Shown here in pieces: positions 9,177-43,459 of a stretch of DNA of 43,629 nt (within the stretch, counting starts at the first letter, position 1; the number at the start of each line of letters is the position of its first letter). A program made the position numbers and the translations under genes. Source of the DNA: Rubidibacter lacunae KORDI 51-2. GTDB taxonomy: Bacteria; Cyanobacteriota; Cyanobacteriia; Cyanobacteriales; Rubidibacteraceae. Under the pieces are notes generated by a model, which saw only the letters and a program-made list of their open reading frames with translations, did no database searches and had not been told where the DNA came from. The stretch lies in contig NZ_ASSJ01000005.1 of assembly GCF_000473895.1 (NCBI RefSeq), positions 1-43,629 on the forward strand, given 5' to 3'.

Positions 9177-9240
9177 CGTATGTATTTGAAGTCAGTTGTT
9201 CCAGCTAACGGTTGTGGCTTTAGAGCGCAAAGGGGCCTTA

Positions 9241-9870
9241 GGCAATAACGAAGTCCGTTGCCGTCAGGTCGGCTCCCGGCACGCCCAAGAGCGTTGCCAG
9301 TTGCACGCCGAGAGCAGAGATCGTCGCGTCGGTCTCGCCGCCGATGCTCAGGTCGGAAAACTCGGTGATGCCATCGATGCCGGCAATGCCGATGACGTCT
9401 TGGCCCATAGTGAAGTCGGTGAAGATGTTTGATGCCTTGGGCAGGATGGCACTTGCGACCCAGAACTGGTCGGCGTCGCCGCCACCGGTAATTACGTTGT
9501 TGCCACCGCCATTCGGGAAGAAGAAACGGTCTTCGCCTTCACCGCCTGATGCACGGTTGTTCGCGCCCAGGAAGAAGTCATCGTTACCGCTCAGACCGTA
9601 CAGACGGTTGTCACCGCCGCCGGCGACGCTGTCGAGGATGTCGGGGCCGTTACCGCCGATCGCGCGATCGCCCGTGCCGACAAGGATTTCGTTAGCACCG
9701 GAACCACCGTACAGACGGCTGCCACCGCTGGTGGAATTGTCGATTAAGTCGTCGCCCGCACCGCCGAAGACAGCCGCTTTTTCACCGTCGAAATCGGTAA
9801 TCGCCGAGTCAAGCGGGTCCGGACCCATCGTGCCAAAGGCTGGAATCGGTCCCACTACTGCGGCTTTCAA
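9241..9870 (-). repeat. Duplicated C-terminal module, copy 2
   Basis: Partner of the segment at 5352-5990. Most differences are silent or conservative, and the similarity continues beyond the stop codon to the terminator stem. Confidence 0.85.
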
Positions 9871-11903
9871 CGGCTCGGAGATGTTGAACTGGAAGATCTG
9901 ACCGCCTTGGTCGGCCTGTCGCTCTGCGATGATGCCGCTAGATTCTCCGCGGTGCTGCACCACGCCGATGAACGTTTGCTCGCTCAAAGGCACGCTGCTG
10001 ATGATTTCTTGTGCGCCGGTGCCTGCAATGTCCTCCTGAGTATAGAACTCGCCGGTTTCGGGGTTCTTCTCCACGAGGTGCGTCACCGCCCAGCTGCCCG
10101 AGAACTCCGAGCTCGTCGCTCGCGTGAACGTTTCTGGAATGGCGGCGACTCCGGCAAGTCCCCGGGGATTGTCGCTGCCGCCCGCCGATGCCAAGAAATA
10201 ACCCGTGTTCGGCTCTACCAGTTCCAGCGAGTCGCCATTGATGGGGAGAACGTACTTCCGCTCGCCGGCATCGTTACCAGAGTCCTCGTCCACAATCAGG
10301 TAGTCGCCGTCAGCTGCCTTGACCCACTGCAGACCATCGGGTTGGTCCATCCGAGCTTCGCCGTCTTCGATATGAATCGCGTGGGTCAACGAGCCATCCG
10401 GATTCTCCTTACCAATGTGTCCGGCCCCTTTGCCACCCGTCTCCAGCGTCAGCGCGCCGTCTACACCAGCAAGGATCCGCGTAACGTCTGCCGATATGAA
10501 GTCCGGCAAGCCATTGCCATCGGCGTCGTTGTTCGCCAGTTCGTTAACGAGATCGGTTAACTCAACACCCAACTGAGCGCTGGGTACGGTCAGGTTTTGG
10601 ACGAAGCGGTGCTTGGTGGGGTCCGGATCGACAGCGGGGTGCTCGGTCTTGCTGTCGCCGTTGAAGTAGGTGAAACCGCCAGCTTCCACACCTCCACCGG
10701 GTTGCTGGTTCGACTCGGTGCTGCCATCTTCCAGCACGTCGCCATCCTGCTCCCACAGGAATATTTCCGTTTCGTTGGCATTCTCGGGGGTGTCGAAGCC
10801 GTCCCACCGATAGCTCGTTGGATAGTAGCGCGCACCAAAACTGTTGGGAGCGTCGGCATCCTTGACGTAGTCGTCCAGCATCTTGGTGTCAACATCGACA
10901 TCCTCAATGCCCAGAGACTCATAGGTCGCTCCATCGAGAGCCATGCCGTAGACTTGACCGTACAGCAAGCCGTTGCGACCCAAGAACGAATCCCGTTCGT
11001 TGGCGTCCTCGGCGAGAGGATTGCCTTGCGCGTCTACCCCCTTCTTACCGATGTAAATCGTCATCGGTTGAGGCTCGATTTCGAGGTTGTACCCAGCTAG
11101 GACGAAAACCACATAGTCTTCGCTGCCTGGGTTCATCGGCAGGATTTTTTCGAAGCCCCCCTGACCTAATGCGGGTACAGTGTAAGCGGTCTCGTTGGCG
11201 ACGTCGACCACCATCGAAGCCAAGCCCATGGTGGTGGTGAAGAAATCCTGCCCGGACCCGAGACGCGCGTTCTCTTCAGTGATACCCGCAGCAGCGGCGG
11301 CCTCTTCAAACAACTGCCCGATGTTCCACTCTTCACCCATCAAGTACACGTCATCTTCAAGACCGATGCCGTCACCGTACTTGTTAGCTTGCTCGTAATA
11401 AGCTCCGCAGAAGGAGTGGAAAAACCAGTCGCCCTGGGTGAGCCGCTGATCGCCCTGCGGGTTGATGTCCGATGGCTCGCCCGAGTCAAACTCAATGACC
11501 GTGCCATCCGCCAGGGTTTGGTTGCCCCACTTAGCGCTCAAATCGGTCGGATCGAAGTTTTTGCCATCGACGATCTCGCCGAAAACGTTGTAGACAGTAG
11601 AAAACAACTTGCCCGAGCCCTCGAAAATCTCGCTAGCAGGGCTGTCGTTGTTTAGGAAATCTGCAAACCCTTCACGGTTATAGTCGATCGTGTGGACGTG
11701 TGAGCCGGTGAAGGTCGCTCCACTGTCCATCACCCAGCCATAGGTCTCGGATTCAGAAGAGCTTAAGGTTGCGTAGGACTCGGACTGATACACGACGCGA
11801 ACGGTGTCCTCGTCCAGCAGATATGCCACTTGACCGTCCGGGTAGCCCGTTAGGGCTTCACCCGTGTTCGGATCGATCTCACCAACAGTTCCTAACGCCT
11901 TAA

Positions 11904-12035
11904 GAGGCCATTTGAAAAGGGTCTAGTCAGGTATCAAAGTACCCTGAGCGATCCGTAGAAAAGCCCCAAAAGTCCTATTCCCTCGTCGCGAGTCATGTGC
12001 CCGATTTCGCGCAACCCGACTTTTCAAATGGCCTC
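11904..12035. mobile_element. 132-bp MITE, IS5-family derived, with TAA target duplication
   Basis: Perfect 16-bp terminal inverted repeats: GAGGCCATTTGAAAAG at 11904-11919 and its complement at 12020-12035. TAA flanks both ends (11901-11903 and 12036-12038). A 3-bp target of the T-N-A type and ends beginning GAG fit the IS1031 group of the IS5 family. The left 37 or so bases, including GGTATCAAA, also match the IS5-type remnant at 42703, so the element looks like an internally deleted copy of such an IS. It encodes no transposase. With its duplication it adds 135 bases, a multiple of three, so the host frame is kept and only one stop codon (TAG, 11923-11925) interrupts it. Confidence 0.88.
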
Positions 12036-12150
12036 TAAAGTTGCCATACGGGAAATCGGTATCGCCGCTTCCCCCATCCTGCAAATCCTCGGGATTGTAG
12101 GAACTGCCTGCCTGCGGAATCAGTGCAGTCGTTTCTCCAATGTTCGGCAT

Positions 12151-41872: not shown

Positions 41873-42469
41873 ATGAGCGCACTGCGAGTTGGAATTGCAG
41901 GTCCAGTTGGTTCGGGAAAGACGGCGCTAGTCGAAGCGCTTTGCAAACGCCTCCGGGATCGCTACGAAATTGCCGTCGTCACGAACGACATTTATACCCA
42001 GGAAGACGCGCAGTTCCTAACGCGGGCCCGTGCTTTGGAACAAGGGCGCATTCGCGGTGTCGAAACCGGCGGCTGCCCCCACACGGCGATTCGCGAAGAT
42101 GCGTCTCTGAACCTGGGGGCGATCGCCGAACTGGAAGCAACATTTCCCTCGCTGGATCTGGTTTTACTCGAGAGCGGCGGCGACAATCTCGCGGCGACGT
42201 TTAGTCCAGAGTTGGTAGACCTCACGATTTACGCGATCGACGTGTCTGCTGGCGACAAAATTCCGCGCAAAGGCGGCCCTGGTATCACTAAATCCGATTT
42301 ACTCGTCATCAATAAGATCGATCTCGCTCCCTACGTCGGTGCCGACTTACAGGTGATGGAGCGCGATGCCAAGCGGATGCGCGGTGATAAGCCCTTCGTG
42401 TTTGCGAATCTCAAGACGCAGGAAGGGCTGGAGCCAATCATTGCCACGATCCTTCCACATTTGGACTGA
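41873..42469 (+). CDS. ureG: Urease accessory GTPase UreG
   Basis: Encodes 198 residues, typical length. UreG is the GTPase that, with UreE, UreF and UreH/D, delivers nickel to apo-urease. The P-loop GPVGSGKT is at 10-17, the conserved metal-binding Cys-Pro-His motif ([12 protein letters not shown]) has Cys68 and His70, and [15 protein letters not shown] and NKIDLAP complete the family signature. No other urease gene is in the window, so it is separated from ureABCDEF here, which is common in cyanobacteria. The start is just upstream of [10 protein letters not shown]. Confidence 0.96.
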
Positions 42470-42702: not shown

Positions 42703-42807
42703 GAGGCTGTTTGAAAAGTTCAGAGCGGTATCAAAATACGCCAGCCATCTGACCATCAGGTGTACCATCGCAATCTGAATCATTGCCTCCGATGACTCCG
42801 GCAGAGG
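42703..42807 (-). mobile_element. IS5-family terminal remnant with transposase C-terminus
   Basis: Begins with the inverted-repeat end GAGGCTGTTTGAAAAGT. On the minus strand it translates LPESSEAMIQIAMVHLMVRW, then LAYFDTALNFSNSL, the C-terminal end of IS5-family (DDE) transposases. The rest of the element is gone; the match ends near 42807, within 65 bases of the start of the PPOX gene. The 16 end bases differ at two positions from the ends of the 132-bp MITE at 11904. Confidence 0.8.
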
Positions 42808-42871
42808 GGTGGACCCCAGTACAAGCGAGCAGCTGGCACGATGGAAACGCGGTGCATTCAGCTACAGTTCT

Positions 42872-43459
42872 ATGGCCCTAGCTCCTTGGCGATCTCCGAT
42901 CGCTCGCGCGCTGCATCGCAATCGTAGCGATGCCCACGCACGTTTTTTTCAACTCGCCACTGTCATGCCCGACGGTCGTCCGGCCAATCGGACAGTGGTA
43001 TTCCGCGGCTTCTTCCCAAATACCGACACGTTAGAGGTGGTTACGGACGCTCGCAGCGAGAAAGTCGCACAGATCGATCGGCAACCATGGGGGGAAGTGT
43101 GTTGGTATTTCACGAAGACGCGCGAGCAATTTCGGATTGCCGGGCGCTTGAAGTTCGTCAGCGCTGACGCTACAGACGCCGATCTTCAACGAGAACGCCA
43201 AGAACGCTGGTACGATCTCTCGGATAGCGCGCGCCTGCAGTTTATCTGGCCGCAACCAAAGGCAAGCCGAGACAGCGATCGCAACGCATTTTTCGTTAAG
43301 GCACCAGCAGCAAATACCAAACCGGCAAGCACATTCAACCTATTGCTCGTCGAACCCGTTGCGGTCGATTGGTTAGAGCTACGCGGAGACCCCCAAAATC
43401 GCACCTTGTTCCTACAGACGGACGACGGCAAGTGGTCTGTCAGGTCTGTCAATCCATAG
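42872..43459 (+). CDS. PPOX-type FMN-dependent flavoprotein (Npun_F5749-like)
   Basis: Encodes 195 residues from the ATG at 42872 (MALAPWRSPIARALHRNRSD). The frame is open further upstream to 42809, but that part overlaps the IS debris. It matches the pyridoxamine-phosphate-oxidase-like split-barrel fold: RFFQLATVMPDGRPANRTVV (strand plus FMN-contact region), SEKVAQIDRQPWGEVCWYF and the C-terminal half with VEPVAVDWLELRG. It resembles the cyanobacterial PPOX_FMN group. Substrate unknown; the fold suggests FMN binding and a redox reaction. It lies next to IS-derived DNA. Confidence 0.85.
   Translation: MALAPWRSPIARALHRNRSDAHARFFQLATVMPDGRPANRTVVFRGFFPNTDTLEVVTDARSEKVAQIDRQPWGEVCWYFTKTREQFRIAGRLKFVSADATDADLQRERQERWYDLSDSARLQFIWPQPKASRDSDRNAFFVKAPAANTKPASTFNLLLVEPVAVDWLELRGDPQNRTLFLQTDDGKWSVRSVNP

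Follow-up and report, generated by a model that had tools for sequence, protein, structure and literature searches.

Introduction

The contig 5 sequence of the cyanobacterium Rubidibacter lacunae KORDI 51-2 contains a short MITE and the remnant of an IS5-family insertion sequence (IS), and the ends of the two are nearly the same. This locus raises the question of whether the MITE is a shortened copy of a resident IS, as its ends suggest, or a different element that a resident IS can move. As a rule, a bacterial MITE is taken to be what is left of an IS of its own genome. A preliminary description, made from the letters of this stretch of DNA, proposed that the MITE probably arose within this IS family by internal deletion and that a full-length relative elsewhere in the genome could mobilise it. 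We refer to the whole stretch that was analysed, 43,629 nucleotides of contig 5, as the window; the genome searched comprises 4,153,658 bases in 99 contigs. Based on the results below, we suggest, with a probability of roughly 0.7, that the MITE belongs to an old non-autonomous lineage of IS1031-type ancestry, which is probably cross-mobilised in R. lacunae by the resident IS.

Results

The remnant and the MITE share their ends

The features of the two elements are collected in Table 1. Judged by its sequence, the remnant derives from an IS5-family element of the IS1031 type, of which it is the right end in decayed form. It is identical at 87/102 positions (85%) to the full-length element on contig 66 described below (genome-wide E 2.3e-26) and contains the 3' end of the transposase gene, with the stop codon TAA changed to TAT, as well as the right terminus. 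If completeness is taken as two ends plus an intact transposase gene, the remnant, which covers positions 810-911 only, is a fragment. The homology stops at 42804 and not at 42807, the boundary initially given. Similarly, the stretch reading YFDT, which had been placed in the transposase frame, is in this frame in the remnant but, given that the TAT of the remnant corresponds to the TAA stop of the intact element, it lies just after the gene in the latter.

Table 1. Coordinates of the features in the window and loci of the related MITEs in genome G239
Feature	Position	Strand	Remark
MITE, 132 bp	11904..12035	+	copy compared with the remnant
MITE left terminal repeat	11904..11919	+	GAGGCCATTTGAAAAG
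MITE right terminal repeat	12020..12035	-	GAGGCCATTTGAAAAG
Target duplication, left	11901..11903	+	TAA
Target duplication, right	12036..12038	+	TAA
Inner stretch of the MITE	11930..11938	+	GGTATCAAA, 26 bases from the end
Interior core of the MITE	11965..11989	+	CCCAAAAGTCCTATTCCCTCGTCGC, also present in MITEs from other genera of cyanobacteria
Gene with the MITE inserted near its 5' end	9238..12150	-	continuous in two same-family genomes
IS5-family remnant	42703..42804	-	corresponds to 810-911 (right end) of the 911-bp element
Terminal inverted repeat of the remnant	42703..42718	+	GAGGCTGTTTGAAAAG
Subterminal stretch of the IS right end	42727..42735	+	GGTATCAAA, 24 bases in
143-bp MITEs of G239			L169, L177, L180, L183, L185, L187, L189, L191

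The neighbours of the remnant are ureG (41873-42469) and an Npun_F5749-type flavoprotein gene (42809-43459). The PPOX-type flavoprotein frame has its mechanical GTG start four bases after the end of the remnant (window 42804-42809); the match to the flavoprotein family starts at residue 24, and the true start may therefore be further in.

The observation on which the preliminary description was built is confirmed: in the window sequence, the 16-bp termini of the remnant and the MITE are identical at 14/16 positions, and the two elements then reach the same inner stretch, GGTATCAAA, at nearly the same distance. This stretch is identical in five of the seven right ends compared in the genome, the other two reading GGTTTCAAA and GGCATCAAA. 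With up to two mismatches allowed, the terminus pattern occurs three times in the window (at the two MITE ends and in the remnant) versus 0.31 times expected, a count reached by 1/100 shuffles. Without constraint on position, an inner match as good as that of the window MITE was found in 1/2000 shuffles, and one as good as that of the MITE-family consensus in 55/2000. With the position constrained, the value for the MITE consensus versus the consensus of the seven right ends is 0.0046 (0.46% of shuffles), which is the best of four end pairings tested, the other three being at 70% or more. In 21/24 MITE copies the best inner match has the same two-base offset.

The genome contains an intact IS with the termini of the MITE

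A search for complete elements with these ends, as proposed in the preliminary description, identified two full-length relatives of the remnant genome-wide: (i) a 911-bp element at C66:64029-64939 with an intact gene for a transposase of 263 amino acids, and (ii) a 912-bp element at C77:7344-8255 in which the gene is broken by one TGA and one TAG. Among the ten transposase-like matches in the genome only the one in C66 gives the whole protein without stops. This protein passes the NCBIfam model NF033580 for IS5 transposases (209.7 bits versus a cut-off of 110) and is above the cut-off for Pfam DDE_Tnp_1 and DUF4096. The C66 copy is flanked by TAA on both sides whereas the flanks of the C77 copy, TCA and TAA, are unequal. 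A 193-bp left-end fragment at G000:C92:2118-2310 (L066, L141) is 99% identical to the intact IS and stops within the contig; its sequence reads as that of a recent copy that has since been cut.

The ends of IS1031 start with GAG, as do the ends of the 911-bp element. On features of this kind, which set the group here in place of a tree, we classify the element as IS5-type with IS1031-like features. It resembles the IS1031 group in its length of 911 bp, in its single IS5 transposase and in a TNA duplication (TAA at C66), and PMC12016507 gives a 3-bp TNA target duplication for this group. The element described there has two overlapping reading frames whereas the R. lacunae element has one.

At either end of the window MITE the terminus equals that of the C66 element (16/16), making mobilisation in trans plausible; this part of the original proposal stands. 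Among the MITE copies listed for the genome, only that in the window has both ends exactly like the terminus of the intact IS. In principle, the similarity of the ends could be due to chance or be widespread among IS5 elements and carry no mechanistic meaning, given that such termini are common in the IS group and that the MITE consensus has only a modest inner match. We consider this highly improbable in the light of the E-value of the remnant match, the 16-base identity at both MITE ends, and the TNA flanks found in both the MITE and the IS. The preferred reading, in which a resident IS drives an old MITE lineage, takes these shared ends as the basis for mobilisation.

The MITE forms a family in R. 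lacunae and interrupts a gene

The element is a MITE in that it is 132 bp long, has no transposase gene, ends in perfect 16-bp inverted termini and has 34 matches in the genome. The window copy used as query gave 29 genome matches, two of which are the right ends of the full-length IS copies; the near-full-length copies other than that in the window are 71-95% identical to it. The figure of 34 was obtained at E ≤0.01, with rough E-values, using a profile of 24 copies (27 MITE rows minus the partial L051, L057, L058 and L060, plus L020), to which copies surfacing only in the later profile search were not added. Equal 3-bp flanks, all TNA, are present in 9/24 aligned copies and in the intact C66 IS, and the flanks are unequal in 15/24. 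At E 0.001 the MITE is absent from eight genomes of the same family (G001-G008), and it has therefore either spread horizontally or been lost frequently. The R. lacunae consensus found nothing in plasmids at E 1.

In the window, a single in-frame TAG inside the MITE breaks the reading frame extending on the minus strand between 12150 and 9238. The corresponding protein is uninterrupted in G006 and G004, with 78% and 74% identity over 129 residues across the site, and the site was therefore most likely empty earlier. The N-terminal part of the interrupted gene has close homologues in two same-family genomes. The 863-amino-acid part has no match in Pfam, and its RTX-repeat matches are weak and far below the cut-off. 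The possibility of an in-frame insertion of the type of the Rickettsia palindromic element was also considered and rejected: the window copy is 132 bp and in frame, yet carries a stop. In a check of stop-free stretches, only the window copy among the 24 had a long open frame on one side of the element that was taken up again on the other; L053, a candidate for a second in-frame case, by eye sits between two reading frames and was set aside.

Three of four single-strand folds were better than nearly all shuffles, with an outer stem formed by the two termini. For the 24 R. lacunae copies only four consensus pairs were predicted, and in the wide family of 30 members described below all 14 consensus pairs are within the termini. 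Because consensus folding pairs only the termini, a conserved RNA structure is not indicated. A comparison of four loci with Rfam gave one match, a glutamine riboswitch in L204, outside the element.

Beyond its termini, the MITE matches the 911-bp IS at one end only

If the MITE were an internal-deletion derivative of the 911-bp IS or of a close sibling in the same genome, both of its subterminal regions would be expected to match that element. The left one does: bases 1-39 of the MITE are 82% identical to the IS right end (E 0.003), and this match argues for such an origin, as do the 16/16 termini of the intact copy and the fact that only 1/2000 shuffles equalled the window copy in its inner match. 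The right one does not: beyond the terminus, the right end of the MITE has no match in the IS left end (p 0.70; 1989/2000 shuffles as good). In profile searches of the IS loci, the interior of the MITE found nothing better than E 0.9, the better matches being at the element ends, and no IS copy compared contains a convincing match to it. Thus, the test of the inner sequence against both ends of a complete element, as originally proposed, succeeded at one end only, and with one matching end and no convincing match in the interior a simple internal deletion of the 911-bp IS is inadequate as an explanation. The resemblance of the left end to an IS right end is what stands of the original claim of parentage; the right end and the middle speak against it. 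A motif near the IS left end resembles bases 52-61 of the MITE (GTAGAAAAGC) but is in the wrong place and on the wrong strand, and was set aside.

The core and architecture of the MITE are, in addition, common to MITEs of other genera (see below), which argues against this origin as well because the lineage must then be older than the R. lacunae IS copies. We infer that the MITE is not a recent deletion product of the resident IS; this explanation is largely refuted and, in our view, quite unlikely. Descent of the MITE lineage from some older member of the IS group is possible on sequence comparison, and the polarity of the ends fits it weakly.

Relatives of the MITE are present in other cyanobacterial genera

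Compared with 388 genomes, the MITE consensus matched, outside R. lacunae, three genomes by short stretches of its ends and G249 once by its interior. The core pattern was derived from this interior; with up to two mismatches it is present in 11/388 genomes including R. lacunae, versus five genomes, once each, for the reversed control. Outside R. lacunae only G239 (nine places, one of them unrelated) and G249 (three) have several core matches; the single matches in other genomes were treated as chance. The exact core pattern was absent from viral contigs.

G239 contains eight identical 143-bp MITEs with the termini GAGGATGTTTGAAAAG and, in 7/8, equal TNA flanks; from their sequences, these MITEs look recently active. 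Counted from the left end, their core lies as far in as that of the R. lacunae MITE, and the interior local score between the two elements was reached by 1/2000 shuffles, with the reservation that the core was picked by a pattern search over 388 genomes and that its own shuffle significance is therefore inflated. The choice of the core had no bearing on the termini and flanks of the G239 elements, which lend separate support to the kinship.

With the G239 element as query, matches at E 0.0005 were found in 22/388 same-class genomes and 15/160 genera, G132 being counted among the 22 on a match by its first 24-30 bases, i.e. an end, only. R. lacunae itself falls short of E 0.0005 in this search and is linked to the family by the profile described below. 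Scoring was confined to the two best candidates per genome, so that copy numbers from this survey are lower bounds. Five Nostoc plasmids also match the G239 element, three of them over most of the element with 73-90% identity, and 20/27 elements from other genomes and plasmids have equal 3-bp flanks.

When 24 elements of other origin than R. lacunae were combined into a profile, this matched the window MITE over its full length, with an E-value of 1.2e-8 in the window, and the next match in the window is the terminus of the remnant at E 0.16. Without termini, the same profile finds the core at E 0.0064. The wide alignment of 30 members combines these 24 outside elements with six of the 24 R. 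lacunae copies; nine of 33 elements were left out, either as near duplicates (L195, L215, L218) or as partial (L202, L207-L210, L214).

Transposases related to that of the 911-bp IS, at most 72% identical to it, are present in other cyanobacteria (25 loci, Nodosilinea and others), and 85/388 same-class genomes, R. lacunae included, have a match at E 1e-60. At E 1e-60 or better, a match is present in 12/22 genomes with the MITE versus 72/365 others (Fisher 0.0005, a value that ignores relatedness and IS-rich genomes).

The polarity of the MITE ends weakly fits that of the IS ends

Within the wider IS group, the element ends compared take the form GAGG..GTTTGAAAAG with few exceptions. Of 40 left ends, 29 were retained, and of 44 right ends, 32, after a demand on length and the merging of identical inner stretches. 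Among these distinct ends, 14/32 right ends continue with GG and 17/29 left ends with TC or CC. In the MITEs, GG follows the terminus in 24/30 left ends, compared with 14/32 IS right ends and 0/29 IS left ends, and TC follows it in 24/30 right ends, compared with 10/29 IS left ends and 5/32 IS right ends.

In scores based on 500 shuffles each, the MITE consensus gave p 0.032 both for MITE-left with IS-right and for MITE-right with IS-left, versus 0.326 and 0.146 with the ends swapped; for the window copy the values were 0.002 and 0.024 versus 0.096 and 0.088. All of these p-values are as computed, i.e. uncorrected for the several tests and for the relatedness of the ends. In a second run, on 17 of the left ends, the signal of the MITE right end over 16, 24 and 44 bases was 0.015, 0.077 and 0.107, respectively. 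The best profile matches at element ends had the expected polarity and paired MITE-right to the L150 left end (E 0.026) and MITE-left to the L151 right end (E 0.13). The opposite polarity, MITE-right joined to IS-right, was also seen (L147, E 0.22; L084, E 0.38). Taken as sequence signals, the profile and polarity data give weak support for descent of the MITE from the IS group.

Polarity also bears on a further explanation, in which the core is unrelated to the IS group and the MITE acquired its termini by recombination with, or by selection for, the resident transposase. This would account for an interior without counterpart in the IS copies compared and for termini that are the best shared part. 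Moreover, as read by eye, the MITE terminus is equal to the IS left terminus in G239 and differs from those of the IS copies in G201, G346 and G321, i.e. in 3/4 other genomes. Against it, the two bases after the terminus keep the polarity of the IS (GG left, TC right), and we regard capture of the termini as unlikely, and descent from the IS group followed by cross-mobilisation as the better account.

Discussion

The shared ends suggest that the MITE is a leftover of the resident IS; its middle shows instead an older lineage that extends over several genera. Combining these data, we suggest that, long ago, an IS of this group lost its transposase gene and gave rise to the lineage, in which case MITE-left would derive from IS-right and MITE-right from IS-left. 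The lineage would then have spread among cyanobacteria with a distinctive core that it acquired or kept. In R. lacunae, the transposase of the intact IS would bind the MITE termini and insert the MITE into TNA sites in the way it inserts its own element, and amplification in this genome was probably due to this resident IS.

In a wider version of this scheme, the MITE would be a long-lived element of cyanobacteria as a whole, with a core kept by selection, e.g. as a site for the transposase or a host factor, carried between genera partly on plasmids and driven by any resident transposase of the IS1031 type. Based on the sequences compared, we hold this version to be speculative and, on balance, doubtful. 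If the core is functional, the family offers a simple test of how an element that lacks a transposase outlasts its lost parent. If it is not, the shared ends still point to the likely motor of the MITE, which is not necessarily its parent.

The pairing of a MITE with a resident IS is of a known kind. For the cyanobacterial MITE Nezha, the proposed mover is an ISNpu3-like IS with similar termini, according to PMC3049150; as described, this arrangement of MITE and IS resembles that in R. lacunae. The MITEs of Anabaena sp. 90 are also short repeats, some of them within disrupted genes as in R. lacunae. According to PMC3542288, they do not obviously resemble the inverted repeats of any IS in that genome; in R. 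lacunae such a resemblance is present. A literature search by words and short end sequences gave no description of the family and only an unrelated sequence match; most subscription papers were outside its scope, and an earlier description of the family is possible. The unexpected part is the core shared across genera.

The same ends may also occur on other elements: in G270, L143 contains, from position 1501 and as read by eye, a longer repeat-like element of which the first 20 bases equal the MITE consensus. By these bases it may represent another MITE family that has its ends in common with the one described here.
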